A stretch of DNA of 64,000 nucleotides from Lunularia cruciata (Eukaryota > Streptophyta > Marchantiopsida > Lunulariales > Lunulariaceae): positions 23,058,732 to 23,122,731 of the forward strand of contig OX419757.1 in NCBI GenBank assembly GCA_948567375.1. Direction: 5' to 3'. Shown here piece after piece: positions 9,396-56,137 of the stretch; position 1 is the stretch's first letter; each line of letters opens with the position of its first letter. The notes under the pieces were generated by a model. The model was not told the origin of the DNA, searched no databases, and saw only the letters and a program-made list of their open reading frames with translations. A program made the translations under genes and the position numbers.

Positions 9396-10730
9396 TCAAA
9401 TGCTACAAATTTGGTGTGATTAAAAATCCCTTGAGAAGACTCTCTTGACAAGATAAAGATCATAGATCACAAAGATTGCAACCTAATAGTGCATGTCTTT
9501 TCCCCACATTCCTTTGGGGAGAAGACTCTTTGTACTCTTCTTATTTGGATTCTTTGTAGCTTAATTTTCCTTAATTCTTTGTACCTACTCATGTTCTAAG
9601 ATGGACTTCAAGAGTTCAAAGAAAAAGGAATTCTACTTAAAACATGAAAGTATCTCTCCTTAATTACACAAAAAAGAAAGAAAAGATAAGTAAATTACAA
9701 ATTTTGCAAAAACTTGAGCACCATACATTAACAATTATCTTGCAATTATGTCTAAGTTGTTTGTATAAGTGCTTACTTTAAATACATCTTTTATACACGT
9801 TTGTTACTATTTTGTAGGTTGAAAGGGATAGACATTATCCTATCCAATTTGAAAATGCAACAAAATGTAAATACCAAGAGATGAAGATAAAATGTAATAA
9901 GTCTTCTTTGATAAGGAAAATATTATAATTATATGCATAAGATTAGTATTCAACTATATGTCTTCTCATCATGTAAATTCTTTTAAAGGATTAAAATTTA
10001 GTCTCAAAGAAACCCTGTAAATAATAGTTTCATATTTTATTATGATAATACTATAAGGCTATTGTATATAATAGCTATTTAATGTGTAAATAATCTTATA
10101 AAATATTTTTTCCAAAGTAGGCTAAGAAATATTAAATATAATTACATTCACAATATTATTATTTCTTACTTTCATCTAAGATGTCACTATTATAATCTTA
10201 GCAATTAGTTACTTATTAAGAGTAAAAAATTTGATCTTAGTTATCCATATTAATATAATCATATGAAATAATAAGATGATTAGTCAAATATAGACTAAGA
10301 GATCCTTAATTATTATAAAATTAAAAAATACAAAATGCAAGTCAAGTTAGACTAAAAGCTCATTTTTTTCTTAAATTCAATACTATTTATTATTTTCTTA
10401 AATACTATTCAAATAAGAGATGAAACTTATGAATACATTTAGTAGTAGATAGACTCTGATTTTTTCTATAGAAATTCAAGCATTTATTATAATTCATTAA
10501 TTCTTATTCATATGAATAAACTTTAAAATTGATATCAGCTTGAATTTAAATATTGTTTATATTTTTCAATTTTGATGCTAGTTAATCTAATGCTAAGTAT
10601 AAATAAAATTAATTTAATTCCATAATATTTAAAATATATGAATTTAAAAAATAATAATGTGAATATTTAATAATTTTAATTTCAATATTATTCCATGTTT
10701 AGTTTATTTTTCTTAAAATAAAGTTTTGAT

Positions 10731-10764
10731 TTAATTAATTAATTAATTAATTAATTAATTAATT
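10731..10764. repeat. (TTAA)n microsatellite
   Basis: About eight perfect ttaa tetramers. Confidence 0.95.
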
Positions 10765-12370
10765 TCATGCAAAGATTTTCTTTACAAGATTACAAAAAAT
10801 TCCATATTACATTTGAAATTAAAATGAGCATAAATACAACTTCAAAACTTTTATCTTCAGTTTTTGTGTAAATTTATAGCGGTACATATTGTTTGAATCT
10901 ACATAATATAATCAATGTGATCTATTAGAATTATATTAGAATTTTTTTAAATACAAATTATATATATAAAACATTATAATAGGTTTCATTTATATATAAT
11001 TATTATTTTTTGATATTAAAATCGATATTAAAATTTTATTATAAATATACTAGTACAACATCTTAGATATGTTTCACTTCAATAAGCACATATTTTGAAA
11101 ATCTTGGAAAGAGAATATACTTATATAATTACAAAATTTCTTATTATTAGATCAATTCTAATAGCAAGATTTCATTCAAATTTCATTTATTATATATATA
11201 TATATATATTATGATTTAATTTCAAGAGATTTTAATCAAATTAGATCTTATATTTAGTCCAATCCTAATAATATATAGCATAAAATTTAAATGAATTTTT
11301 TTAATATAGTAATGTTGATTAGATATCTATAAACTAAAAAAAATAGATAGAATAATATATTTATTTATTTATATTGTATCATCATGATTAACTCTTCGTT
11401 GATTCTTCTTTCTTATGAATATGATTTGATAAAGTTAGAAATTAGAAAGATATATCAAAATTTATCAAAAAATATTTAGATCTAATGTCAAATACACCTT
11501 TGATTAATCTATGTCAAAATAACTAGATTGCATTCTATGTCTATTACTTTTATGAATGCAATTAAAAGTTTTACAAAAGATAAAATAATGATATAATGAA
11601 GTAATTTTGTATTGACTATGCATATGAAGGGTACATGGTACTAGGGTACACTTGTACACTTGATATTGAATGTCGTGAGTAATACTTGATTAACTAAAAT
11701 TGAAAATATTTTTTCACTCAATATAAAAATATATTTGAATAATACATTAAAATTATAATTCCTATAGAAACCTACAAATTGGATGCTTGGATTTTAAAGA
11801 CACTTTACAAACATTTCTAGATCTAAAATGATTTTAAGTTAAGGGATTTGAATTGTTTCTCGGTCAAAACAATTGAAATGTTATAGCTTAACACTATGAT
11901 TCGGAGAGAAAGTCAATTAGAAAATAAATTCCAACCTCCAAATAGCTTGCATATCAATCAGCTTTTGCTAAGGTGTTTTTGTTTGTTTATAAATATATTG
12001 CATGCTTAATTCTATAATGCTTGATAATCTATGATAGATAAAGGTGTACTATATAAGAATCCTTTTTAATATTGTTAACTTTGAGCTTACTTACCTTTGA
12101 GAGATAGATTATATGATTATTAATATATAAATTATAGATTAAGCAATCATCTCAAAGGAAGCAATTAGCTAACAATACTCCATAACTAGTATATTTATGA
12201 GTATGAGTAACAAAAATAGACAAGTTTAAGCAATTTACAACTATAGATAGCAAGGTCTCTTAGAATTGTCATCTTGGATGGAAGTTTACTAGTTAATAAG
12301 TTAATCAATTATTTGAGGTGAAGGAAATATTAGTCAAAGTGGAAATTGAATGTAAGGAGATAGAATATCC

Positions 12371-28562: not shown

Positions 28563-30133
28563 TGCCACCATTCATCATATCTTAATTATTATTCTTGACA
28601 TTCCCTTCTTCCTCTCTAGTTTCTGAAGTTTGTGCTGCTCTACCTATATAATTCTTTTGTTTTGTTCTCTCTCCCTTCCTTTCTTTGTGAAATTTATATT
28701 TCTCTTTTCCTTTTGTATCTCTTTGCTTATTTCCTTTCTCTTAATTCTTGGGGGATTGTATAAGAGGAATGATGCTTAAAGTTGATGCATTGAGTTTGAT
28801 AAGATGAGAGATCTGGTGCACATATTTTTCAAATTTTTTTTAAAACAAAATGTTTCTTTTTTCCACAAAGATATGATGGAATAATTGCTTGTTCAAGAAA
28901 GGAAACCCCTTTATTGTGTTTTCTTTGGAGTTGTGCTTGTACATGCAAAGGTACAAAGGAAACAAGTACAAACCAGAAAATCCCTCCAAAGGAAGAATGC
29001 CAAAGATGTCAAGTTCAAAGGGTGATAGGAAGCAAAGAACTCAAGTACAAAGCTCCTTTGGACCCAAAGATTGTGTTGCAACCAAGATAAAGAACTACCA
29101 CCAGAGACCATTGATATTCTCCCAAAGGCTCATAAATGTGGAGAGTGACTGCTCACCTATTGACTGAAAAATCTTAGCTAATAAATCAATTACATTTGGA
29201 GCAATTTCACTTTCTGCCCGCAATTTCCAATCTCAAATCAAATAGTGAACAATAATCTAACACCTTCGTAGTTTGTGTAGACTTTCATAGACCTTTATAG
29301 TTGTTTTTTTAAAATTTTTGCACCTAATAGGAAATATGGTGTTTGTCCAAAAACACATGAGACAAATCCCTTAGGCAATCCTTTGTGCTCCAACGGTCAA
29401 CAAATAGGTGATTTATTGTAGAAGTGACTTGGTCCATAGCAAGCATCTCTCCTTCTTGCCATGGAACTAGGAGTTGAGTGATTTTGGAATCATCCATGAG
29501 ATGAAGGGGAGGAAGGATAAAGCAACAAAGGAGCTTTGAGGGAATTCCTTCTCTTGGATAGAGAAGAATTGGAGAAATGTTCTTGATTTGGATGCAAGAC
29601 AACTTGGGAGTATGATATTGGATACCAAATTTGGGCCTACAAACAAAGACATGAACACTCAAATCACTACATCCTTAGGAAAGAAAAGGTCTACCAATAA
29701 TGGTTGGAGGGTGGGTAATTACAAGGATCCAACTTGGAAGGCAATTATCAAAGTAGTTATGTAATTGTCTTGACTAAGAAGCTGACCTACATCAACAACA
29801 ACCAGGAAATCTTCATCAAGTATATGTATCAAGGAGAGCCAATTAATTGGGGAATAATGTTCTTCCACCATGCAAGGAGCATGTATAGAGAGGATAAAGA
29901 AGATAGTTGAGCAACATATCTAGCACATTTTCCATACACTTCTACTGATGCTTGACTTACTTACAAAGGAGCAATGTAAGAAGTTCCTCAACCATTGCCA
30001 TCTAGTAGGATACTTCACCTTATAGCCCAAAAGTCAATTGATCATCTACAAATACCAAGATGTAGACATGGAGTACAAGGAGACTAGAAGGTTTTGCTAG
30101 TAGATGAAGAAGGGATCATTACCACAACCAAGA

Positions 30134-30704
30134 TGTTGTGCGTATATACATTGCTACACAATATACATCGCTGTCAACATTATACACAATAGAAGCACAA
30201 CTCACACATAAGTCATACATAAACACTAAAGTGCCACAATAATCAGATCGTTTACCACAATAATCAGATCGTTTACCACAATAATCAATCAAACTCAGAT
30301 CAATACTTGATCTGATCCTCAACAACTTGCCAACAACAAGGCACTGATTAAGTCAAGCCACACCCACTCTAGCTAAGAGACTCCAGGTGATGCTTGCCGG
30401 CTTTTTGTCCACTCTAGCCAAGAACTCAAAGGCTCAACATCAGAGAAGTGAGCTCTCTGGAGCTGCACTCCTAGGGTATACCCCTGATTTTGACCTAGGT
30501 CTCCTCCCAACGGTCCCATTGACAGCACACCCAATGGTGCGGATGATGCAAGTGACGGTGGGCCCTGCCATGAAGTCAGTACCCTAAACCTGAAATCTGA
30601 CCATCGGAAAGTAGTCTATGAGTAACTAACAAAATGCCTCTAACTACTATCACTGGAACTCCAATGTCCAAGCATCTAGATGCAACACTACAAATGGTGT
30701 GACA
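30134..30704 (-). mobile_element. Solo terminal repeat (L-S) of the element M family
   Basis: Read on the minus strand it begins TGTCACACCATTTGTAG and ends ATATACGCACAACA. It aligns along its length with 53043-53597, the terminal L2+S2 of element M. It is flanked by AAGA at 30130-30133 and 30705-30708, a 4-bp target-site duplication. A 21-bp unit containing ccacaataatcagatcg is present three times at the L/S junction. It most likely arose by recombination between the 5' and 3' copies of L. Confidence 0.88.
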
Positions 30705-42652: not shown

Positions 42653-43645
42653 TCAAATCTTCTCTAACTTTGAATTGACTAAATCTAATCTAAGACTAAC
42701 ATTGTTCTCTACTTCTAACATTTTCCTATCTATGCATTCTCTCAATCGGATCAACAAGGTGTTCATGTCCACATCCTTGGCTTTCCTCTTCCAAGTTTCC
42801 TGCACAAGTAACTTCAACTCATGTAGGCGGGCTTCTTCCAATCTCTCTTTAGCTTCCGTGCTTAAGATTGCTCTCAACTTCCTCGCAACTTCTCCCACTG
42901 ATTCCGATGCATATCCTTGAGAGCGATCTACCTTCAACTCTTCGCGATACATCTTCAACTCGTCTTTGTACTCCGCAGCGAGCATCTTCTTTTCCTCTGC
43001 ATATTGCGTGCTCTACCTTTCCGCACTCCTGACGAGTTCTTGTAATCGTTCCTCTTCTTCTTGCCTGGCTGCCAACTCTCGCTGCCATGCTTGATCTTTC
43101 GCCGCTGCACTCTTCTTCAAACTATCCAACTCCTGCTCCATTATGATGGTCATCGCCTTCAAATGGACATTCTTGATGTGCACATCACTCACTTCCTCCT
43201 TTTTCTTGCTGAGCCACATTGCCTATTCCGTTAATTCTCCGGCTCTCCTCTACAATTCTTTCTCTTTTTCCTCACAACTTTCTTGTAACATGGTAAGAGT
43301 CTTCTTCGTCAAGCCTTCCTCCCTCCAAAGTTCTTCCACTTCCTCACTTCTTTGGACTTGTTGCTCTTGCAACTTCTTCACTTCACTCATCAAATGCATC
43401 ACCACCTGCAACTCGTTCATCCCCTTCCTACAATCTTGGGGAATTACCTTCCAATTATCCTTTAGTAGCTCTAGCAATGATGTGACCACCTTTGTTAAAT
43501 ATGGTATCCCGCCAAAGTTCCCTTCCTCTTCATTGCTGTCTTTGTCTTGAGTCTTCACCTCCGTCATCGGCTCCTTCATCCAAAGTCGTGATCTTTGTAT
43601 CTTCATCGTTTTGGTACTTTTTTTGTCTTTGCCTCTTGAACTTGG
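42653..43645 (-). pseudogene. LTR-encoded ORF2, copy 2, C-terminal part
   Basis: The coiled-coil half of ORF2, in one frame with three internal stops. Landmarks are MNELQVVMHLMSEVKKLQEQ, DQAWQRELAARQEEEERLQE and EARLHELKLLVQETWKRKA. It joins the N-terminal part at 53602-54885 in the same frame once element M and one TTGG are subtracted, giving about 758 codons. Confidence 0.65.
43642..43645. other. Target-site duplication of element M, left copy (TTGG)
   Basis: TTGG matches 53598-53601. The empty site can be read in the other LTR of element A as aactcggccccgtggg near 33100. Confidence 0.85.
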
Positions 43646-44093
43646 TGTCACGCCATTTGTAGTTCTGCATCTAGATGCTCGGACACTGGAGTTCCAGTGA
43701 TGGTAGTTAGAGATATTCTAGCAGTTTCTCAGGGACTACTTTCCGACGGTTAGATTTCGTGTTTGGGGTGCTGACTTCACGGTGGGGCCCACCGTCACTT
43801 TGCACCGTTTGCACCGTCGAGTGTGCCGTCAGCGGGACCGTTAGGGTTTCAGGGCCAGCTCGAGTCCAGGGGGTATAGTTTCGAAGTGAGCTCCAGAGAG
43901 CTCACTTCTCTGATGTTGAGCCTTCGAGTTCCTGGCTATGGTGGACAGAGGCCGGCCAGCGTCACCTGGATTCTCTATGCTTGAGTGGGTGTGGCTTGAC
44001 TGTAATCAGTGCCCAGTTGTTGGCAATTTATAGAGTGACAGATCAAGTATTGATCTGAGTTGAGTTGAGTTGAAAGTGTTAAGCAATCTGATT
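43646..44093 (+). repeat. Element M terminal repeat L1 (5' end)
   Basis: Begins TGTCACGCCATTTGTAG and ends gcaatctgatta. It aligns closely with L2 at 53043-53490. After L1 comes catcagagaagtg, which weakly resembles the initiator-Met PBS (tggtatcagagc) in its atcagag core. The 107-bp S segment that follows L2 at the 3' end is absent here. Confidence 0.9.
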
Positions 44094-45577
44094 ACATCAG
44101 AGAAGTGAAGTCAGAAGGAAATCGGGTGCAGGAACGTTGAGTGTTGGTGGTATCTCCAAGCTCGGTGGATCGTGGTAGCTCGATTCAGGTTCGGTGTTTC
44201 CCTAGTGTGCAGAAGCTCGTGTAGTTGATGCAAATTTGGCAGTTAGGCGGGCGGTGTACGGAAGCGCTGGCCAAATTTCGAGCAAAGAAGGAGCAATTTT
44301 CGAGCAGTGTTGTGATTTTGAGCTCAGGAGGTGAAGGCAGGACCAATTTGCTGCGAGTTGGGCTCAGAAAGTGAAACTGAAGGTGGAGTTGGAAAGCTCT
44401 CCTCATGAAATTGTGATTTGGAAAAACCCGTTTTGTCAATTTGGCTCGAGTGGAAAGTTAGTGGGGGATTTGGCGGACATCCATCTTTAGGGTTTACGTC
44501 AGATTTTATGTCAGATTTACTGGGCCAGAATTGGAGGAGTTTTGCTGTTTGGCCAGATTTGGAGAAGTTTTGCTAGTTTGGAGGAGTTTCGCTGTTTGGC
44601 CAGATTTGGAGAAGTTTTGCTAGTTTGGAGGAGTTTCGCCAATTTTGGAGGAGGTTCGAAGTGGCAACAAGAAAGGCCTCATTTGGCTGAATTTTGGCGT
44701 TTCGAGGCTTCGAGGCATAGGGCTGTGGGCTATGAGAGGCTACGAAGGCCTAGAAGGGCAAGCAAGCCAGCTTGCTGGCGTGAGGCTAGCTAGTTTAGTG
44801 TAGATCTTGGTCATTGGTTGGCAAAATCTGCCTTTCTTGCTAGATTGTGCGCAACAGGGTTTGACCCCTAGATCTCTTTTTCCTAGACTGGTGCCCTAGC
44901 CAACTGGTCCACCCTCACTTGTTGTCATAGTGACTGTGCCACTGTTATCTATACACATGTAACTTTGGCTAGGAGAGGCAGTTTGATCCCATTCTTGGTG
45001 ATCCTGGTAGCTTAGGACTTAGATACAAACTACTCTTATGTCAAATGCCAAATGGTGGCAGAGTCAGTTCCGTGTTGTGTTATGAGATGGAGGGTTTTTG
45101 TTTAGATTTCTTGTGATTGGATCCCCTCCATTCTCTGCTTCCTGTTTGTGCACCACGTTTGTGTGAGGTGCCCTGACTTTTGAGCGTTGGTGCTCTGGTG
45201 TGCTCTCGGTGGTGAGGCTGGAGTGATGACCAGTCAGACTACCTTTGTTTCTCTCCGGTGAGGCAGGAAGTGATGACCTACAGACCGTGAGAGTGCGTGT
45301 TATGATGGCAGGTTACAGGTTGCCCTTCTCCTAGTGTAGTTATCTCGGTAGAGTTACATTAGTGGGTGGTGTTTAGTTGGTGTTGGCACGTGGTGGTGTT
45401 GGCACTTGGTGGGGTACTTGCGGTTGCGACTTGCGGTTGCAGTTGGTGGTTCGGGTTTGTTGTTGCAGTTACGTGGTCACGACGGAGTTCTTTGGAGATT
45501 CTAGAGGAGTTAGCCCTGCAGTACGCAGTGGATTTACTTGGAGTGGTACTCGGTATCAGCCTGTATCTCAGGTCCCA
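44094..45577 (+). other. Element M 5' leader with 49-bp tandem repeats and a tRNA-like segment
   Basis: About 1.5 kb without a supported ORF. Between about 44529 and 44660 a 49-bp unit (ctgtttggccagatttggag plus aagttttgctag) occurs twice plus a partial third. On the minus strand at about 44855-44930 the sequence has a box A-like tggaccagttggctagg and a box B-like ggggtcaaaccct, suggesting a degenerate tRNA-derived piece. Confidence 0.5.
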
Positions 45578-46501
45578 ATGAGGGAGGAGATTGACTCTGA
45601 GTTGGAGTTCGACACAGGAGCTGATTCAGTTGAGAGTGCACTTGGTGTGTCCGCACCGTTGTTGTGGGACATGGACAAGATTTATGGGGCCTCCAAAGGC
45701 CCTAGGCGTTACTCTGGTACAGTGGGTACCATTGAGTTGGATGACTTCATCCAGGAGTTCGATAGTTGGTGTGATCTGCAGCAGATGCGGAACCCGACTT
45801 TGTTCACACCTTTCATGGCATGGAAGGGGTTGTTTCAGCACTTGGAGGGTCCACCAATGGATGATTACCATGAGTTCAGGAGAGCTCATTTGGAGGAGAT
45901 TGAGTTATGGAGACAGTATTGGTCTCCACACTATGTCTCCATCACTTCAGGCTCGGTGGCCAGGAGTAGATCGGCTGTACCTACGAGTTCTAGCTCGAGT
46001 AGTGTGGGTGGAGCTAGTGGAGGTGCACTAGCTGGAGATAGTGCTACTACGAGTGGAGGTATCGCTGCAGGAGGTGGTGTGGTACCGGGGTTTAACCCTA
46101 TGGTTGAGTTCTTCCTATGTTTGAGGCAAAACTACCAGGGAGTACGGACTGACAAGCTGAGGAGCTTGCAGGAGTTCCAACGGAAGGCTGGAGAGAGCCT
46201 ACGCGAGGCATACACTCGCATGAGGCGGCTGATCAGTTTCACTCAGGGAGTTACTGAGGCCCAGGCAGTCCAGTTTTGGTATGGGATACTAGACAGGGAG
46301 TTGCGACATAGAGTTCGTGATGCTACGTTGTTGCAGGCTACTTCGCCCACTTTGGCAGTAGTCTTTGGTTTGGCTGAGCGTATTGAGCTCAACATGGTGG
46401 AGGAGAGAGTGGTGACAGCTGGATTTGGTAGAGAGACCTCATCCACGATTGTGACTTCTTCTAGAGTGCAGCAGAGTGCACCACGCCCAGTTGGTTTTTG
46501 A
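45578..46501 (+). pseudogene. Element M gag (capsid)
   Basis: Starts MREEIDSELEFDTGAD; this is the first ATG of the conserved frame after low-complexity upstream codons. The gag-like core is IELDDFIQEFDSWCD and then FMAWKGLFQHLEGPP. A Gly/Ser/Ala-rich linker follows, then FQRKAGESLREAYTRMRRLI and TEAQAVQFWYGILD, the usual retrotransposon-gag helices. It ends at a TGA (46499-46501) in what should be an Arg codon (CGA), and the same frame continues open, so the stop is probably decay and not a natural gag end. Confidence 0.8.
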
Positions 46502-48340
46502 GGACAGGGTGGACAGCCCAGATCCTATGGAGCGAGTGGAGGGCCTAGTGGAGTTAGACCCTTACCCTCATTTTTGGGTCAGCAGCAGCCAGTGAGTGGT
46601 GGTGTTGCTTGTTGGACTTGTGGTGGACCTCACCATAGGAGAGAGTGTACTCAAGGCAGCGGACCTGATACCTCTGGTGCATCACAGCCAGCACAGAGGC
46701 AATGTGAGCACTGCCATAGATTTGGTCATACTAGTGACCGGTGTTTTGACCTACACCCGGAGTTACGGAGTGGTAGGGCTGCTATGGCAGGTAGTAGAGG
46801 AGCTCCAGTTCATGGAGGACGAGGTGGTAGAGGTGGTGGTAGAGGATCTACACCTAGTAGGGGTGCAGTACCTGCCCTTACTTCTGACACAGCTATGGCT
46901 ACTCGGATTGAGCAATTGGAGCAGAGATTGGCTAGTATGGCTATTGCTCAGAGGAGATCAGATTCGGGTGCTGAGGCTTCCACCTCATATGCTGGTGATA
47001 GAGATGCTTTGGACTTCATGTGCGGAGCAGCACAGGTGGATGCATCTGCAGCAGTGACTAGGAGTGCAGTACGTGCTCCAGAGCCTAGAGGAGCATCAGT
47101 GGAGTTGGACCCACAGAGAGGAGAGGTTGGGAGACAGGTCAGACTTCCCCAGTCTTTCACGCTTTCTGAGGCATTGCAGACAACATCCATGGTTCCTAGA
47201 CGTCCCAGTGCAGGTGTGGTAGGTGGTGATGGAGTACCTACTAGTCAGTCACCTACTACTACACAGACTGAGTCTAGCATGATGTTGGGGGCGGCTCAGC
47301 TGATTATGCGGCATCCTTTATTTTCAGCCAGTGACTTGTTTACATTGGGAGTTGACCCAACCCTAGTGTTCCGGTTGGCTGCCACGTTGTGTGAGAGTAG
47401 GGATGGTGCGGTTCCTACTACTAGAGCAGAGGTGGTTGGTAGTGGAGCTGACTTGGTTGAGGAGCATGGGATCCGTTCAGCGACCAGTGGTTTATGGCAG
47501 GCAGTAGCGGCTAGACTGGAGGAGTTGCCAGCTAGACCGGCCTTTGAGAGGGCGCGGTTTACACTTGGTGTTGTCCTATTGGATAACCAGAGGGGGATCT
47601 TTCATTTAGTGGGACCTTTAGGGAAGGTCTATACACCACAAAGAGTCTTGTTAGACTCTGGTGCGCAGCCCCTTATGTTGGGGAAGGCTGCAGTTGTTGG
47701 TCTGGAGTTACGGAAGACCGATGTGGAGAGGTGTCCATTTCAGATCCAGACATCTCTTGGTGGTGGTTCGACACAGTACATCACACGTGGAGAGCTTGTT
47801 GTCCAGGTTCAGCGTGGTCATCCGACTGATAGCTCAGTGGTGAGAGCTCAGGCTATTGCGACGATAGCTGAGTCATATGATGTGCTAGTTGGAGGAGCAG
47901 TGTTATACCCCATGGGTTTCAGTATTGACTATTGGGAGGAGACAGCCTCTTATAGACCTGGTTGGCAGTCTGGTGAGGGACGGGTATGTCGCCTACCAGT
48001 ACGTTTCAGTAGTGGCAGTCTTGGCTCACTACAGTCCGGGACGATGGCAGCATCAGTTTTGGCTTTCAGCGGTGCAGTTACTTGGCCTGGTGACTTGTTG
48101 GAGAGGAACGCCCATGCAGAGGATACTCCAGTACCAGAGGAGATCACTCGGCTATGGAGTACGAGTGGGATTGTTCCATCCACCTTGGATGTTCCATTGT
48201 GGAGTTCAGAGGAGGCATTGCAGCAGCATGCAGATCAGTTGGTACAGCAGGCTTGGAGTGGAGCCTTCGTACCATCAGGGGATGAGTGTGAGGATGAGCC
48301 TCCAGAGGCGATTGCTTTGACACCTCTGGATACCACACTC
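46502..48340 (+). pseudogene. Element M nucleocapsid and aspartic protease
   Basis: Continues the gag frame. Two zinc knuckles appear: CWTCGGPHHRREC (about 46610) and CEHCHRFGHTSDRC (about 46705, a standard C-x2-C-x4-H-x4-C). A Gly/Arg-rich RNA-binding-like stretch follows (GGRGGRGGGRGSTPSRG). After about 250 unassigned residues, the retropepsin active site is VLLDSGAQPLMLGKAAV with its Asp codon at 47654-47656, and the flap/second-lobe region is ESYDVLVGGAVLYPMGFSI. About 100 residues then lead into the methyltransferase without a stop. Confidence 0.82.
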
Positions 48341-49340
48341 ATTGCTTGGCAGTATCCAGTAGAGGGGATATGCCTATTGGAGTTGTTTGGTGGGATCAGC
48401 ACCGGACTAGCTGCGGTGTTACAGGCGAGTATCCGAGTACAGAGGTACTTGTATGTAGAGAGAGATGAGACTGCTAGGCAAGTCTCTCTACATCATGTGG
48501 CACACTTGGCCTATCGGTATCCGGAGTTATTACCGATGTCAGCAGTCAGAGGTTACCAGAAGGCCTTACCAGGAGACATTTCCTTACTGGGGGCGCATGA
48601 CCTAGAGAGACATGGGCCTATTCACTTGGTGATTTCTGGATAGCCATGTCAGAGACATACATGTGCGGGCCGCGGTTTGGGTCTTCAGGATCCTCGTTCT
48701 GGTGTGTTTTGGGAGATGTTACGGATACTACGACATCTCCAGGTTCATCAGTCTGTTTCTCCAGCTTACCTTTTGGAGAATGTTCCTTTGTTGGGTGATT
48801 CTCGCACTAGAGTGGTGGCGAGTACACATCAGGTCCATTCTTGGATGGGACCTGTTGTATTGTTAGATGCAGCCAGAGTGGGATCACGGGCTCATCGTCT
48901 TTGTCTTTGGTGGACAAACCTCTTACCCAGAGAGGTTCTACAGCGTAGTTATGATGGGATTCAGCGACTAGACCACATTCTTGTTGATGATATCTTGGAT
49001 GCTGGACGTCAGTCTCAGACAGTGGTAGTGGCTGATAGGTCACCTATGGCAGTGGTGAACCTAGTTGGACAGCCTAGAGCTGCATTTCCCACACTCATGA
49101 GTTTCCCAAGCTCTCATGCTTTTCGAGAGGGAGGACCTGGACTTGTTTGGGACTCACAGTTACAGCAGTTGGTGGAGCCCAATGCTGATGAGAGAGAGCG
49201 GGCGATGGGTTTTCGCACCGGTATTACCGCTGTTCCAGCAATGTCAGAGGCATCCAAGCGTCAGGTGTTAGGTCAAGCTATGGACCTGAACTGTTTGACC
49301 TGGATTGTGAGCCTTGGTTTGGCAGAGCAGCGTAGGATGC
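48341..49340 (+). pseudogene. Element M C5 cytosine DNA methyltransferase domain (DNMT3-like)
   Basis: Predicted to transfer a methyl group from S-adenosylmethionine to C5 of cytosine. Motifs are seen in order. I: LLELFGGISTGLAAVL (about 48375). IV: SG-stop-PCQ (48635-48652), with the catalytic Cys present. Then GLGLQDPRSGVFWEMLRIL. VI: LLENVP (about 48773). VIII: LDAARVGSRAHRLCLWWTNL. IX: FPTLMSFPSS. X-like: VLGQAMDLNCLTWIV, with RAMGFRTG before it. The I-to-X order is not permuted, unlike plant DRM enzymes, and the IDA-AHR-R-FW-NLP pattern recalls DNMT3. The TAG at 48641-48643 replaces what is probably Trp (GWPCQ), so this copy would be truncated just before the catalytic Cys. It sits between protease and RT. 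I exclude a host gene fragment because it is in frame with gag-pol on both sides. Confidence 0.85.
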
Positions 49341-49654
49341 GCTTGATAGGCATCACCACTCGGACACTTGTGAGCCCTGTGCCGATCGAGATGATTCAGG
49401 CACATGCTGGGGGCGATGGACCGAGTGGACATGGTATTCTTGGGACACATCCAGTAGCTACTAGGGAGAGTGGTCTACTTGGAGTCCATCCAGGTGAGCG
49501 TGGGCTACTTGGATTACACCCTTGGTCCACATGGGATGCAGCCAGAGGACGTATGGAGCTTGCAGCTAGAGTGGAGGGAGTTTTTCACACAGAGGTTGGG
49601 AGATCTAGTGGTCGGGAGCATGACACTATTGCTCCCAAGGGCCCAGTGTAGTAG
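49341..49654 (+). pseudogene. Linker after the methyltransferase, ending in a double TAG
   Basis: Same frame. It contains a short repeated motif (GILGTHP, GLLGVHP, GLLGLHP). It ends at TAGTAG (49649-49654), after which the frame stays open into RT. The two TAGs could be CAG CAG altered by C-to-T, or a real boundary between a gag-PR-methyltransferase ORF and a pol ORF. Confidence 0.6.
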
Positions 49655-50760
49655 CCAGTCAGTACGTCTTCCACTCCTACTATAGTTACAGAGGATACTT
49701 GGGAGCCAGATCTTGGACCCAAGCTTATTGGAGAGGAAAGACGGAGGGTTTGGAGGTTCTTGAGGAGTCACACGAGTTGTTTTGCCTTCAGTATGAAGGA
49801 TTTGGGTGCTCTGAAGGGACCTGGTATACGGATTGAGCTGACTAGCGACACACCTATTTTCCGACGTCCTTATCGATATAGTGATATGGAGAGGACATTG
49901 ATTCAGAGCCGGAGTAGTGACCTTTTTGAGGTTGGTTTGGTGGAGATTTCACATGGAGAGTATGCATCAGCGACAGTGATGCCAGCCAAGAAGGATATGC
50001 ATGGCAACTATACAGATAGGCGGATGTGTGGAGATTACCGTCCTATCAACCGACAGACCAGGGCTGATCGGTATGCCATGCCTACACCGGAGGAGATTTT
50101 TGATGCGATTGGGCATGCAAAGGTCTTCAGTACTTTGGATCTTTGAGCGGGATATCATCAGTTGCCGATCAGGGAGGAGGATAAGTCCAAGACAACATTT
50201 TGGGCTATTGATTCTCACGGCAAGGATGTGTTATATCAGTGGAGGTTCTTACCATTTGGGTTAAAGAACGTTCCTGCTGAGTTCCAGAGGGTCATGGATA
50301 GGATCCTAGCTGGATTGGATTTTGCTCGGTGCTATATTGATGACATTTTGGTTTATAGCACTATTGTGGAGGAGCATGAGAGACAATTGTTGGAGGTGTT
50401 TGAGAGGTTGAGATCTCATGGACTCAAATGACATCCTGGGAAGTGTAGGTTCTTCCATGAGCAGGTTGAGTATTTGGGTCACATTATCTACCCCGGAGGA
50501 CTTGGTGTTCAGCAGACCAAGGTGGAGGCTATTGCACGTATTCCTCGGCCTACGGATGTGAGCAGAGTGCGAGCATTCCTTGGGTTGGCAAACTTCTATC
50601 GCCGCTATGTTAGAGGATTTAGTGCCATTGCCAAGGCCTTGACAAAGCTGACCAAGCTTACACAGGAGTGGTGTTGGGGAGATGAGCAGGAGAGAGCTTT
50701 TGTAGAGCTCAAGGAGAGGTTGACATCCGCTCCTATTTTGAGAAGACCGAATCAGGGGAC
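49655..50760 (+). pseudogene. Element M reverse transcriptase
   Basis: Same frame as gag-methyltransferase. It opens with EERRRVWRFLRSH and the region IFRRPYRYSDMERTLIQSR. RT motifs follow: RRMCGDYRPINRQTRADRYA, motif A FSTLDL-stop-AGYHQ, then FLPFGLKNVPAEFQRVMD, motif C CYIDDILVYS, and EYLGHIIYPGG. The connection region is VRAFLGLANFYRRYV. Stops at 50144-50146 and 50429-50431 are TGA where CGA (Arg) would fit. A frameshift occurs near 50758. Catalytic Asp residues of motifs A and C are intact. Confidence 0.92.
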
Positions 50761-51146
50761 GACCATTTCAGGTTCACACTGATTGGAGTATGTTGGGGCT
50801 TGGAGCGGTGCTCACCCAGCATGATGATGAGGAGAAGGAGTTTGTGGTGGCCTATGCTAGTCGCTCCAACAATTCAGCGGAGGCGAAGTATAGTTCATAT
50901 GAGGGAGAGTGCTTGGCAGCAGTTTGGGTAGTAGCACATTTCCGATGTTACCTATTTGGTAACCCCTTCACTCTCATCACTGATCATCAGCCGCTGAAGT
51001 GGTTGATGGAGTCCGACAAGCTTTCAGGGAAGCTTGCACGATGGGCTCTGATTTTACAGGAGTATGATTTCACGGTTGTTCACAGACCTGGAGTGGTGAA
51101 CCGTGATGCAGATGGGTTGAGTAGAAACCCATGTCCCAGCCAGTAG
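50761..51146 (+). pseudogene. Element M RNase H
   Basis: After the shift the frame reads TDWSMLGLGAVLTQ, then VAYASRSNNSAEAKYSSYEG, ECLAAVWVVAHFRCYLFG, ITDHQPLKWLM and NRDADGLSRNP. This is the gypsy RNase H-like domain that degrades the RNA strand. It ends in a TAG (51144-51146). Confidence 0.9.
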
Positions 51147-52570
51147 GATCAGACCGGAGCACGTTGGCATGGTGAGACAGATGAGGAGATGGTGCCAGGT
51201 TGGCATGCATCGGCCTTTCTGTGTATATTTGCAGAGACTTTGGTGGTATCTCTCTCAGCGCATACAGGAGGAGTTATTGAGCTCACAGATCCAGAGAGTG
51301 AAGATATTGGTACAGTTCAGCGAGACATTCTGATGATGTCTTAGTGATGGACTATCTTCGCATTGGTGTTGTGGGTGGCACAGTTGGGGCCAAGGAGAGA
51401 GACCGTGTTCTTCAGCAAGCCAGACGGTTCAGATTGGAGGGTAGACACCTTTTGCGTGTATGGGAGGATAGTAGAGTGCGAGTAGTACCACTTCCATCAC
51501 AGAGACCACAGTTGGTCCGTCATGCTCATGAGGAGCTAGGACATTTTGGAGTAAAGCGTACATATAGCTTACTCGAGAGTCATTATTGGTGGCGCGGTAT
51601 GCAGACCGAGGTACAGCAGTTTGTTGCCAGATGTGTGGTTTGTGACCAAGTTAGAGCATCATTCAATGCTCCTACGCCACAGTTACACCCATTACCTATC
51701 ATGGGATTGGGTTACCATTGGAGTTTGGACTTTGCCGGACCTTTACCGCTGACTGTGAGACATCATCGGTATGTTTTGGTGATGGTGGAGCACTTCTCCA
51801 AGTGGATTGAGTTGGTGGCACTTCCTGACAAGTCTAGTGAAGGGACAGCTTACTCGTTCCTGGATCGAGTTCTTAGTCATTTTGGTGCACCAGCTGAGGT
51901 TTTGACTGATCAGGGTACAGAGTTCTTGGGGAGAGTTTTAGGTCTTATGTGACAAGGCTTTGATTGATCATCGTACTACATCCCGAGATCACCCTGAGGC
52001 AGATGGCTTAGCAGAGAAAGTGGTTCAGACGGTGAAGAGAGGATTGCAAAAGTATGGTTTGCAGAGAGGCCACTTGGGAGATTGGGATCTCCAGTTACCT
52101 TGGTTGGCCATGGGCTATCGGTTCAGCCGGCAAGCCTCCTTAGCATCCTTCTCTCCCTACTTTCTACTCTATGGACGAGATCCAGATTTACCTGCAGCCA
52201 TTCGTCGAGATGCTACCGTAGTTTTGGACTTGGATGACCCCGATGTATGGATGAGTGCATGTTCTCAACGGGCAGAGATCTTTCGGAGAGTGATGCCGAT
52301 GGCCTTTGAGAACTTGGCGATTGCTCAGCATAGAGATACTTTACACTATGCTACCATTCGAGGAGGAGGTTATAGACCCTCGATCCGTCGATTTCATCCA
52401 AGCGACTATGTATATCTACAGCAGATAGCACCGACGACACTTGATGTTTCTACAGGCCGCACTATCTTGAGAGTGCGTGAGGTTTTGCCATCTGGAGTCC
52501 TTGTGTTAGAAGGACGTGATGGTGTTGTTTGGAAGGATCATGTGCGCAATTGTGCGCCATGCCACCTTCC
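51147..52570 (+). pseudogene. Element M integrase (zinc domain and DDE core)
   Basis: A short RH-IN linker is shifted near 51335. Then from 51344: zinc domain HAHEELGHFGVKRTYSLLES, followed by RCVVCDQ (HHCC). The DDE core has WSLDFAGPLP (first Asp), EVLTDQGTEFL (second Asp) and, after a frameshift near 51940, HPEADGLAEKVVQTVKRGLQ (Glu). The C-terminal part includes LASFSPYFLLYGRDP and RRFHPSDYVYLQ, then RTILRVREVLPSG. All three acidic residues are intact. Gypsy-type integrase would join the element ends to host DNA; the 4-bp TSD agrees. Confidence 0.9.
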
Positions 52571-52766
52571 AAACATTGATGGTACTATGGACCCAAGCTT
52601 GGTACTTGTACGTGCAGGCTTGAGGTGTATGTTATGTGGCTCTTCTGGTGGAGCTGCTACTATGTTAGTGTGTGATAGTTGTTCGAGAGGATGGCATATG
52701 GCATGTATGACTCCTCCCCTCACGATGGTTCCTCAGGGACAGTGGTTATGTCCTAGATGTACTTGA
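52571..52766 (+). CDS. PHD finger at the integrase C-terminus of element M
   Basis: In the integrase frame, the last ~47 residues form a C4-H-C3 zinc finger: CMLC, VCDSC, GWHMAC, and WLCPRC before the TGA at 52764-52766. The spacing (C-x2-C, x11, C-x2-C, x4, H-x2-C, x14, C-x2-C) fits a PHD finger, including the conserved Trp before the final Cys pair. PHD fingers often read histone H3 tails. By analogy with integrase chromodomains it could direct integration to certain chromatin. That role is inference. Confidence 0.85.
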
Positions 52767-52933
52767 CCTATAGCTAGTTCATTCTTTATATGGTATAGAT
52801 TGCAGACAGGCGACTAACGATGGGGCTCCATAGCACCCGGCCTCCTGATCTTTGCCCATTAGAGGGTATACCATATAATTAGAGTAGATGGCTATCTGGA
52901 GTTAGAGGGACCTAACCGCCAGCTAGGGGGGCG
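52767..52933 (+). other. Element M 3' untranslated internal end with purine tract
   Basis: Non-coding. It ends in ctaggggggcga (about 52923-52934), a purine-rich run directly before S1, in the place of a polypurine tract. A degraded reverse copy of this segment is found at about 55985-56137. Confidence 0.7.
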
Positions 52934-53597
52934 ATTGTGGCACTTTAGAGTCTATGTATGACTTATGTGTGAGTTGTGCTTTTATAGTGTATGATGTTGA
53001 CAGTGATGTATGTTGTGTAGTGATGTATATACGCACGACAACTGTCACGCCATTTGTAGTTCCGCATCTAGATGCTCGGACATTGGAGTTCCAGTGATGG
53101 TAGTTAGAGTTATTCTAGCAGTTTCTCAGGGACTACTTTCCGACGGTTAGATTTTGTGTTTGGGGTGCTGACTTCACGGTGGGGCCCACCGTCACTTTGC
53201 ACCATTTGCACCATCGAGTGTGCCGTCAGCGGGACCGTTAGGGTTTCAGGGCTAGCTCAAGTCCAGGGGGTATAGTTTCAAAGTGAGCTCCAGAGAGCTC
53301 ACTTCTCTGATGTTGAGCCTTCGAGTTCCTGGCTATGGTGGACAGAGGCCGGCGAGCGTCACCTGGATTCTCTATGCTTGAGTGGGTGTGGCTTGACTGT
53401 AATCAGTGCCCAGTTGTTGGCAGTTTATAGAGTGACAGATCAAGTATTGATCTGAGTTGAGTTGAGTTGAAAGTGTTAAGCAATCTGATTATTGTGGCAC
53501 TTTAGAGTCTATGTATGACTTATGTGTGAGTTGTGCTTTTATAGTGTATGATGTTGACAGCGATGTATGTTGTGTAGCGATGTATATACGCACGACA
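52934..53597 (+). repeat. Element M 3' end: S1-L2-S2
   Basis: S1 is 52934-53040 (attgtggcac to gcacgaca). It is followed by ac, then L2 at 53043-53490, then S2 at 53491-53597. S1 and S2 are both 107 bp and differ at two sites (t/c). L2 matches the 5' repeat L1. The true end, gcacgaca, is followed directly by the TTGG duplication. So the element is L-internal-S-L-S, not LTR-internal-LTR. Confidence 0.9.
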
Positions 53598-53601
53598 TTG
53601 G
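53598..53601. other. Target-site duplication of element M, right copy (TTGG)
   Basis: Repeats 43642-43645. Element A sequence resumes with ccccacggtattctcc. Confidence 0.85.
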
Positions 53602-54885
53602 CCCCACGGTATTCTCCTCCTTCTCTTCTAGTCTTGGCTTGTTCACCACTATTGCCTGACAAGCCTCATTGACCGCCACCAATTGCTGAACTTTTGGCTC
53701 CCCATTGCTCTTGGACTCCTCACTTTTTAAGGTGAGCTCCTCTTCTTTGGATTCCTCCTCTTGCAATTTGGTTTCTTCCCCAGACTCCGATCCTGATGAT
53801 ACGTCTCTCACCATCTTTGTATTCTTTAGAATCAGCCGCCGAGTCTTTCTTTGAGTGGGAGGTGACTTTGCTTCTTCGGGTTTGCCACGTTTCTTTGTCT
53901 TCGGACTAGTAATTTCTTTGACCTTCCATTGTCCGGTCTTTGAGAAATATTCATCGTTTGTTTGAAGATGCAGCATATACTGGCTCTCTTCCTTGTCTGC
54001 TTCCCGTCGTAAATCTGGATGAACGTAGGACACCATACAATGATGCTCCTCTTTGGTCAGCAGGTTCAATCCAAAGTAGAAATGTACTACAAACGGTGCA
54101 AAGTAATGCGGTGGCAAGCCCGTTCGCCAATTAACCACCATCTGCCTTGTTTGGTGGTGGAACCACTTTGCCCAATTCACTAGAACTCCTGCAAATATCT
54201 GGTGGAAAAAGATGGCTTGCTGCATGTTCACATAGGTGGTTTGTTCTGGCTTGAGCATGGCCATCATCGCTCCCACAATGCTTCTTTGGATTGGATCCCA
54301 ATAGGACTCCATCTTGTATCCATTCGTCGTTCTTGGAGCAAAAAACGAGTTGTGAATCTCCACCGTCTCCTGTGCAACATCACACTTCCAATAGAAGGTG
54401 ATCCTCGTCGGCTCTCCTGCTTCTCTCCCCAATACTAACCTCCAATCCGACTCAGTCCCTCGTGCCGGATTGCCTCTCTTCCCTTCCACCTCGAGACCCT
54501 CCTCACAATTACTGGCAGCAATCTCTGGCATTACTCCTGGGAAACTGAAATTCCAATTCCATGCTAAAAAGGTAATACAAAGTCTAGTCAAGACTTTGAT
54601 TCTAGCTATTACATCTAATCTTTGGATTGCGAAACCTTGCACCGCCAGCGCATTGGCCACCTTCTTTGCCATGATCTGTTCTCTCATTCTATGATGCTGG
54701 AAGATGAGACCCTCTCCTGGACGAGACACTCTAACTCCATCGGGGTTTTGGAAAATCTCACTCTTGATGGGCTTCTGGACATGCATTACTACAAGATGAC
54801 TACTCAAAGGGATTGGAAATTTACTTGGAACATTCAACTTGTCCCTGCGCAGTCACACTTTTATATTACCCCAAATTGCAATCAT
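53602..54885 (-). pseudogene. LTR-encoded ORF2, copy 2, N-terminal part
   Basis: Starts MIAIWGNIKV at 54885. A TGA shortly after (near 54859) stands where copy 1 has CGA. The remaining ~410 codons are open up to the element M insertion. Landmarks: FLAWNWNFSF, EQTTYVNMQQAIFFHQIFAG, VNWRTGLPPHYFAPFVVHFY, PTQRKTRRLILKN. The C-terminal stretch is acidic and Ser-rich before the coiled coil. No family was recognised. Confidence 0.65.
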
Positions 54886-55384: not shown

Positions 55385-56137
55385 TTTGGTAGGTTTGGTA
55401 TCATAAAAATATACATAGCTACACAACATACATCATTGTCAATATCATAGACTATAGAAGCACAATCTGTATAAGAAGTCACACAAAAACTCCAAAGTGC
55501 CACCATGATGATAAGAAAATAGATCTCAACACTCAAACTTTTTGCCAATAGGCATTGATTACATCATCAAGCCATATCCACTCTAGCTAAGAGAATCCAT
55601 GTTCTACTTGCTAACCTTTGTCCACCATAGCCAAGAGCTCAAAGGCATAACATAGAAAAAATGATATCTCTAGAGCTACACTTCAAAGTATACTCCCTGG
55701 AGTGGCCTGAAAGTTCAGCCTTAACTATACATTTGACGGTGTGTCACAAACCCTAACATAGTAGACTATTGCCACCAAGTAACTCATGAATAGCTGTTGG
55801 TAAAATTTTGGCTGCCAAAATTCTCCCCTAATGTCCTAGTAAACTTTCTTGGTCTTTGAAAATGTCATGATAACTATTATTCAAATATACATTGCTACAC
55901 AACAAACAATGTTGTCAACATCATACACTATAGAAACACAACTCATATAAGGAGTCACACAAAAACTCCAAAATGCACAATTGCCTCCCTAGTTAGTGGT
56001 TAGTTCTCTCTAACTCTATAAAGCCATATACTCTAGGTATGTGATATACATTATGGTGAGCAAAGATCAAGAGGTTGGGTACTATTTAGCCTCTTTGTCA
56101 ATAGTCTATCTGCAGTCTATGCCACATAAGGAATGAA
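55385..56137 (-). mobile_element. Degraded 3' end of an element M relative (internal-S-L-S)
   Basis: Read on the minus strand from 56137: it matches the 3' non-coding end of element M (ccaacctcttgatctttgc, and gggaggcaattgtgca), then an S copy (about 55983-55870), a shortened diverged L (about 55865-55504) and a second S (about 55503-55395). It is strongly diverged, and no coding part remains. Confidence 0.65.

Follow-up and report, generated by a model that had tools for sequence, protein, structure and literature searches.

A DNMT3-type cytosine methyltransferase domain in a split-repeat Ty3/gypsy retrotransposon family of a bryophyte-like genome

A DNMT3-type C5-cytosine methyltransferase (DNMT) domain is a standing part of a Ty3/gypsy retrotransposon family that is abundant in a bryophyte-like genome and has relatives in named bryophytes and chlorophytes. 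The family is described here from one copy in the window, the whole 64,000-nucleotide stretch of DNA that was analysed (G000:C6:23058732-23122731 of the 566-Mb host genome). The preliminary description of this stretch had reported a methyltransferase inside a Ty3/gypsy element, and the host genome bears this out far beyond the single copy: a degenerate pattern for methyltransferase motif IV, allowing at most one mismatch, matched 2000 places genome-wide (control, 1). The element class is already known; the bryophyte-like host, the domain order, a conserved stop codon, a PHD finger and the seams between terminal repeats extend it.

Layout and abundance of the element

The element occupies window positions 43646-53597 on the forward (+) strand, as do all of its features given below. 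It is 9952 bp long and is flanked on either side by a matching 4-bp target duplication, TTGG (43642-43645 and 53598-53601). Pfam matches follow the order Gag, DNA_methylase, RVT_1, RNase H, integrase (H2C2/rve) and PHD finger; the Gag match is weak and under the Pfam cut-off, and the protease was assigned from a DSGA motif and its position between Gag and DNMT only. The Gag-protease-RT-RNase H-integrase order, the H2C2-rve integrase, the TG...CA ends and a target duplication within the 4-6 bp range all agree with a Ty3/gypsy element. The identical direct LTRs expected at both ends are not found, as the left end carries repeat A1 and the right end carries B1-A2-B2. DIRS elements have split repeats, and the A1-interior-B1-A2-B2 layout of the family is of that kind. 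However, the element has an rve integrase and 4-bp duplications rather than the tyrosine recombinase and lack of target duplication of a DIRS-like element.

ORF1 (45671-49648, with its start placed from Marchantia relatives) encodes Gag-CCHC, protease and the DNMT domain (48341-49340). It is followed by a UAG codon (49649-49651) and, in the window copy, by a second stop immediately after. ORF2 (49655-52766), which continues the ORF1 frame in open copies, encodes RT, RNase H, integrase and, after the integrase, a C-terminal PHD finger (52626-52760; PF00628, 1.4e-11). Both ORFs are broken in the window. Premature stops interrupt gag, RT and DNMT, where a TGA at 48641-48643 lies one codon ahead of the motif IV PC; the RNase H-integrase part has changes of frame. 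The window copy is a dead member of a large, recently active Ty3/gypsy family.

The size of the family is evident from two further patterns, one for RT (2707 places genome-wide with at most two mismatches; control, 0) and one for the A|B seam (4475 places with at most one mismatch; control, 0). On C1 below 21.4 Mb, 46 RT places matched exactly and were compared with the 75 DNMT places listed there with one mismatch; for 31 of the 46, motif IV matched about 1.69 kb away, as expected. In the 15 unpaired places motif IV may have more mismatches, or the domain may be absent. The genome-wide motif-IV, RT and paired places rule out a recent capture confined to the window copy. A1 and A2 differ by 0.2-3.5% in all but one of 17 copies (10% in the exception), and the low values indicate that the family moved recently.

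Conservation was followed in 21 copies, the window copy and 20 others chosen for long open frames from 123 scored methyltransferase matches, a choice that biases open-frame rates upward and gives no measure of how often the domain is lost. An in-frame stop lay inside the DNMT domain in 9 of the 21. All 21 retained PC in motif IV and EN in motif VI; copies with an intact motif IV, for which the preliminary description had proposed to search the host genome, are present. Its concern that other family copies might lack the domain is answered by the genome-wide places matched by the motif-IV and RT patterns. Pairwise pN/pS values, kappa-corrected for transition bias, were 0.48 for DNMT, 0.46 for RT, 0.47 for RNase H, 0.47 for protease, 0.40 for Gag and 0.26 for the PHD finger. 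The integrase value, 0.82, was well above the range of the other domains (0.26-0.48), and its pS was the lowest.

Other features of the window and of single copies were noted in passing. Two stretches within 55399-55981, at 82-83% to repeat B on the opposite strand and with A-like sequence at 55551-55701, are evidently the remains of another relative of the family. From an older relative (A 81% and B 93% to the family), a solo A-B repeat survives at 30133-30704 on the reverse (-) strand, with an apparent 4-bp duplication, TCTT, at its flanks; such a repeat is the expected product of recombination between A1 and A2. A 437-codon ORF (53542-54852, - strand) overlaps the right end of the element and has no Pfam match at 0.01. 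The G+C content falls to 19% at 10001-12000, and Rfam and tRNA scans of the whole window gave no match. Elsewhere in the genome, copy L042 (G000:C6:41213800-41223700), which has a CCCA duplication, lies inside sequence resembling repeat A of another copy and, judged by eye, looks like a nested insertion.

The methyltransferase domain, its reading frame and its relatives

All six C5-methyltransferase motifs claimed earlier were located in the window copy, in the claimed order and frame: I (48368-48409), IV (48635-48661), VI (48770-48787), VIII (48881-48913), IX (49187-49213) and X (49265-49294), under the motif numbers of the preliminary description. The part of the domain behind the premature stop scores 22.4 bits against Pfam DNA_methylase (cut-off 22), and the part ahead of it has no Pfam match at 0.01. 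An open copy from the host genome, in which the methyltransferase fold is complete, matches DNMT3A in the PDB at 8.5e-12, and a profile built from 11 relatives does so at 3.3e-23; none of the 11 aligned sequences departs from the catalytic Cys or from the motif VI EN. A chance resemblance to methyltransferases is ruled out by the two matches and the fold. The nearest solved relatives are DNMT3A/B, not DRM2, DNMT1 or HhaI, and the order I-IV-VI-VIII-IX-X is the unpermuted one of the DNMT3 type. A DRM enzyme would have motifs IX-X ahead of motif I, whereas the element domain starts with motif I. The element domain is 26% identical to the DNMT3A/DNMT3B catalytic domain over the alignment. It differs from these enzymes in having neither ADD nor PWWP, both of which are parts of DNMT3, and in being fused to Gag-protease.

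The UAG at the ORF1-ORF2 boundary is present in 21 of 21 copies. In all 20 fetched copies it is followed by CAG-YYA; the window copy differs, with its second stop there. CAR-YYA after UAG is the readthrough context of the tobacco-mosaic-virus type. Decay does not explain the stop that divides DNMT from RT in the window copy, since the 20 other copies share the UAG; its conservation puts DNMT together with Gag in the first of two ORFs. The longest ORF1 has 1428 codons and the longest ORF2 1037, measured stop to stop in one frame. From its context, we infer that ORF2 is probably reached by UAG readthrough. We also examined 32 hand-picked proteins of the Gag-side DNMT order (P0001 of the host genome and Marchantia, Sphagnum and metagenome relatives). 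Twenty-two end 72-141 residues past motif X without an RT, four gene models continue from DNMT into RT (P0006, P0007, P0012 and P0020), four end sooner, and in two motif X was unmatched. The placement of the UAG, together with proteins ending before RT, suggests that DNMT should be made in Gag amounts and RT by readthrough. The preliminary description had put DNMT in one frame with gag-protease and RT. The shared frame stands, as Gag, protease, DNMT and the start of RT do lie in one frame, but the single reading unit does not, since a conserved and probably leaky UAG precedes RT. The same placement turns the timing of methylation into a testable claim, namely that the methyltransferase would be in the particle at Gag level.

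The relatives of the domain, 44 matches, included Marchantia polymorpha (69% identity), Sphagnum fallax and Closterium. Haematococcus, Monoraphidium, Scenedesmus and many metagenome contigs appeared among the best 120 of 140 matches in another set, and Calypogeia, Riccia, Marchantia paleacea and more Sphagnum species among the best 120 of 279 in a third, where the nearest named relatives were bryophytes at 74% identity or less. No Klebsormidium protein was seen in the 44 matches, the best 120 of 140 or the best 120 of 279. In the IMG/VR scan 14 loci matched at 26-50% identity over short segments, and we read these as generic phage C5 methyltransferases. Among 153 proteins scanned for domain order, DNMT came after RNase H in 117 and after the protease or before RT in 22; 13 end before the order can be told, and one is a host ORF2 without DNMT. 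In a tree of RT-RNase H from 29 proteins, a single branch with 100/100 support parted the 5 rows of one order from the 24 of the other. Of the 152 proteins with a DNMT, 81 have GWECQ as motif IV by a simple pattern (P0023, P0041 and P0064, for example), an unusual change at the proline preceding the catalytic cysteine in chlorophyte-type elements. The abundance of the family here and the presence of relatives in both bryophytes and chlorophytes speak for an association of long standing rather than a late capture restricted to one lineage.

The host genome has its own CMT-, DRM- and DNMT3-like exons. The preliminary description had set the unpermuted element domain apart from plant DRM enzymes, and the permuted motif order of the host DRM exon (L002) agrees with this. 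The further contrast with the main de novo enzymes of the host is incomplete, because the genome also carries DNMT3-like exons (L001, and L004 as judged by eye). In a small tree all 44 retrotransposon DNMTs lay apart from 6 cellular DNMT3/DRM sequences, the cellular rows filling just 31-48% of the columns, so that the clustering within host genes that would mark a recent capture did not appear. With the same column coverage, this separation leads us to reject a nesting of the element DNMT within host DNMT3 or DRM. The base of the tree is less resolved, and P0150, P0046 and P0230 fall outside the two main groups.

Repeats, ends and the proposed replication route

Repeat A1 (43646-44093) begins with TGTCACG, is 97.6% identical to A2 (53043-53490) and would hold the RNA start and U5. 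B1 (52934-53040), the probable start of U3, is separated from A2 by the two bases AC (53041-53042), and B2 (53491-53597) ends in CGACA at the right end. Outside the TGTCACG...CGACA ends, 4-bp duplications were found in 12 of the 13 copies, out of 21, for which both ends were available, L043 being the exception. A primer-binding site (PBS, 44094-44108) directly follows A1. Its 15 nt are complementary to a stretch within A (43902-43916) that would be the 5' end of the RNA, given the presumed RNA start, compared with a maximum of 10 in 2000 control placements. The site abuts A1 with 14 nt exact in 18 of 21 copies; in the remainder this end is absent or altered. An RNA 5' end complementary to a PBS by the 5' repeat is the self-priming layout of Tf1, and we infer that the family RNA probably self-primes in a Tf1-like manner. 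A purine-rich tract (52925-52933 in the window copy) lies directly before B1 in 21 of 21 copies.

The positions of the PBS and the polypurine tract are such that reverse transcription would give B-A LTRs, not A-B. If the cDNA has B-A LTRs, the integrated form would be a circular permutation of it, and the A2|B2 seam would be U5 joined to U3. Genome-wide, 71 A|B seams carried extra bases (1-6 seen, up to 24 allowed). In 68 of them the insert was a prefix of the PBS (52 with a single A and 16 others, including one with a base lost), and in 3 it was not; without the 52 single-A seams the count is 16 of 19. PBS remnants at joined cDNA ends are typical of retroviral two-LTR circles. A single extra A is weak evidence for joined ends, and some inserted seams could be inherited rather than newly formed. 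The B1-A2 seam was matched in 15 copies, with GC (12 copies) or AC (3 copies) between the termini. Ten of these seams read as the palindrome GACAGCTGTC, the halves of which are the two ends of the element. These features suggest that the integration precursor is a two-LTR circle, which would be opened within an LTR at its B|A seam, and the A|B seams provide a direct test of circle use by a gypsy integrase.

Starting from what is read directly in the DNA, namely the domain and its conservation, the UAG, the repeats and the target duplications, we propose the following route. The upstream ORF would make Gag-protease-DNMT3, with RT-RNase H-integrase-PHD produced through UAG readthrough, and DNMT would enter the particle together with Gag and outnumber RT there. 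The RNA would prime itself, its 5' end pairing with the PBS, and yield a linear cDNA with B-A LTRs, the ends of which would be joined into a two-LTR circle with an A|B seam. Integrase would open this circle at the B|A seam within one LTR and insert it with a 4-bp duplication. Before or during integration the packaged DNMT would methylate the cDNA or the circle, so that free element DNA might resemble host DNA, and the PHD finger would read the histone H3 tail at the insertion site. Methylation of the circle or cDNA by a packaged DNMT is our best hypothesis for the domain. The scheme as a whole, from the Gag-linked DNMT3 to the reading of H3, is tentative and in our judgement falls just short of probable. 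Several observations count against it. If the circle can be cut at both of its B|A seams, a cut in the other LTR would yield A-B-A-interior-B copies as well, and none was found among the 13 copies with both ends. The integrase pN/pS of 0.82 and the yeast result for KnitGypsy-Dnmt3 described below also count against it.

Role of the methyltransferase and comparison with known systems

Fusion of a PHD finger to the integrase end in 115 of the 153 scanned proteins raises the question of whether the target of DNMT is the host chromatin into which the element inserts and not free cDNA. Integrase-PHD would then dock on nucleosomes, the flanks would become methylated, and the new copy would be hidden or steered into silent chromatin. 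The chlorophyte-type order, in which DNMT adjoins integrase, is in line with such a role. In the host genome, however, DNMT is on the Gag side of the stop and would enter the nucleus with Gag, not specifically with integrase, and we consider this role unlikely.

Less likely again is self-limitation, in which the element DNMT would promote the silencing of its own copies and lower the damage to the host. Differences between LTRs are mostly transitions (148 of 170), and CpG is over-represented among them (63 of the 148, compared with a CpG share of 16% among the C/G positions of repeat A). These CpG transitions fit methylated copies but fit host methylation equally well, and the CMT-, DRM- and DNMT3-like exons of the host can account for the decay. 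The CpG observed/expected ratio of the element, 0.49, lies between those of its two flanks (0.59 and 0.30) and says little. A family of thousands of copies does not look self-limited, and any single copy could readily lose a trait that silences it.

The domain might also be kept for a non-catalytic reason, such as nucleic-acid binding or particle structure, a reading that ranks below self-limitation and that we regard as improbable. Motif IV does vary in chlorophyte-type elements, with ECQ for PCQ. In the yeast assay reported in the main text of PMC5890265, two SymbioDIRS-Dnmt3 copies methylated CG, whereas isolated KnitGypsy-Dnmt3 and SymbioLINE-Dnmt domains gave no methylation; as human DNMT3B failed too, the authors draw no conclusion from this. 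The KnitGypsy-Dnmt3 result takes slightly more weight to the non-catalytic reading and slightly less to methylation of cDNA or circle. Nevertheless, the complete fold, the invariant catalytic Cys and motif VI EN in the 11 aligned sequences and the retention of PC and EN in all 21 host-genome copies count against this reading. That the split repeats are an accident, in which the founder of an ordinary A-B LTR element lost its left B and gained a B beside the right LTR, is highly improbable, for although an integrase commonly leaves TG...CA ends and a 4-bp duplication, the PBS abuts A (18/21) and the purine tract abuts B1 (21/21), so that reverse transcription would regenerate B-A at both ends, PBS bases occur in 68 of 71 inserted seams, and DIRS-like repeats are reported for the Klebsormidium element in the main text of PMC5890265.

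Methylation of cDNA or circle by the packaged enzyme can be extended to a broader claim, that a gypsy lineage of chlorophytes and bryophytes abandoned linear-LTR integration, joins the ends of its cDNA into a two-LTR circle, has its integrase open that circle at an LTR palindrome and carries a Gag-linked DNMT3 in order to methylate the free circle. With the repeat anatomy taken from the host genome only, this claim is doubtful. If true, it would explain the recurrence of methyltransferases among retroelements whose split repeats are of the DIRS type. Since relatives of the family occur in Marchantia, a tractable plant, the gain to a transposon from methylating DNA becomes testable.

DNMT-bearing retrotransposons are described in the main text of PMC5890265 (de Mendoza et al. 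2018) from dinoflagellates and one charophyte, and the authors judge the acquisitions independent. There, Dnmt3-related domains in the Pol polyprotein of Klebsormidium nitens gypsy elements (KnitGypsy-Dnmt3) are unpermuted, intronless and under purifying selection, and for Symbiodinium DIRS elements it is proposed that cDNA is methylated upon retrotranscription. None of the terms PHD, Marchantia, target site duplication and chlorophyte is used in that main text. Retrotransposons with adenine or cytosine methylases, in hosts including green algae and charophytes, are treated in PMC6338049 (2019), the available text of which states that they are absent from land plants such as tracheophytes. The literature covered on bryophyte or chlorophyte gypsy DNMTs, split-repeat gypsy elements and circle integration, from which most subscription papers fell outside the scope, held no description of the present anatomy or of bryophyte members, and neither is mentioned in the available text of PMC12477816, PMC10952607 and PMC6453930.

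The present family shares related DNMT, RT, integrase and PHD domains with the chlorophyte-type RT-RH-DNMT-IN-PHD polyproteins of Haematococcus, Monoraphidium and Scenedesmus, which differ in carrying DNMT between RNase H and integrase and mostly ECQ in motif IV. SymbioDIRS-Dnmt3 and SymbioLINE-Dnmt of Symbiodinium are likewise retrotransposon-borne DNMTs, as far as the published main text describes them, but in DIRS and LINE elements and not in gypsy. Self-primed gypsy elements of the Tf1/sushi type share the RNA 5' end complementary to a PBS beside the 5' repeat; they have ordinary LTRs and are not known to carry a DNMT. By its description, KnitGypsy-Dnmt3 resembles the present family in its unpermuted Dnmt3-related domain within an LTR gypsy element, its DIRS-type repeat layout and the purifying selection on the domain. 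In contrast to the Klebsormidium host, the host here is bryophyte-like and the copies number in the thousands. Beyond the main-text description of KnitGypsy-Dnmt3, the present family has a UAG between DNMT and RT, a PHD finger, a putative self-priming site, target duplications and the seams.
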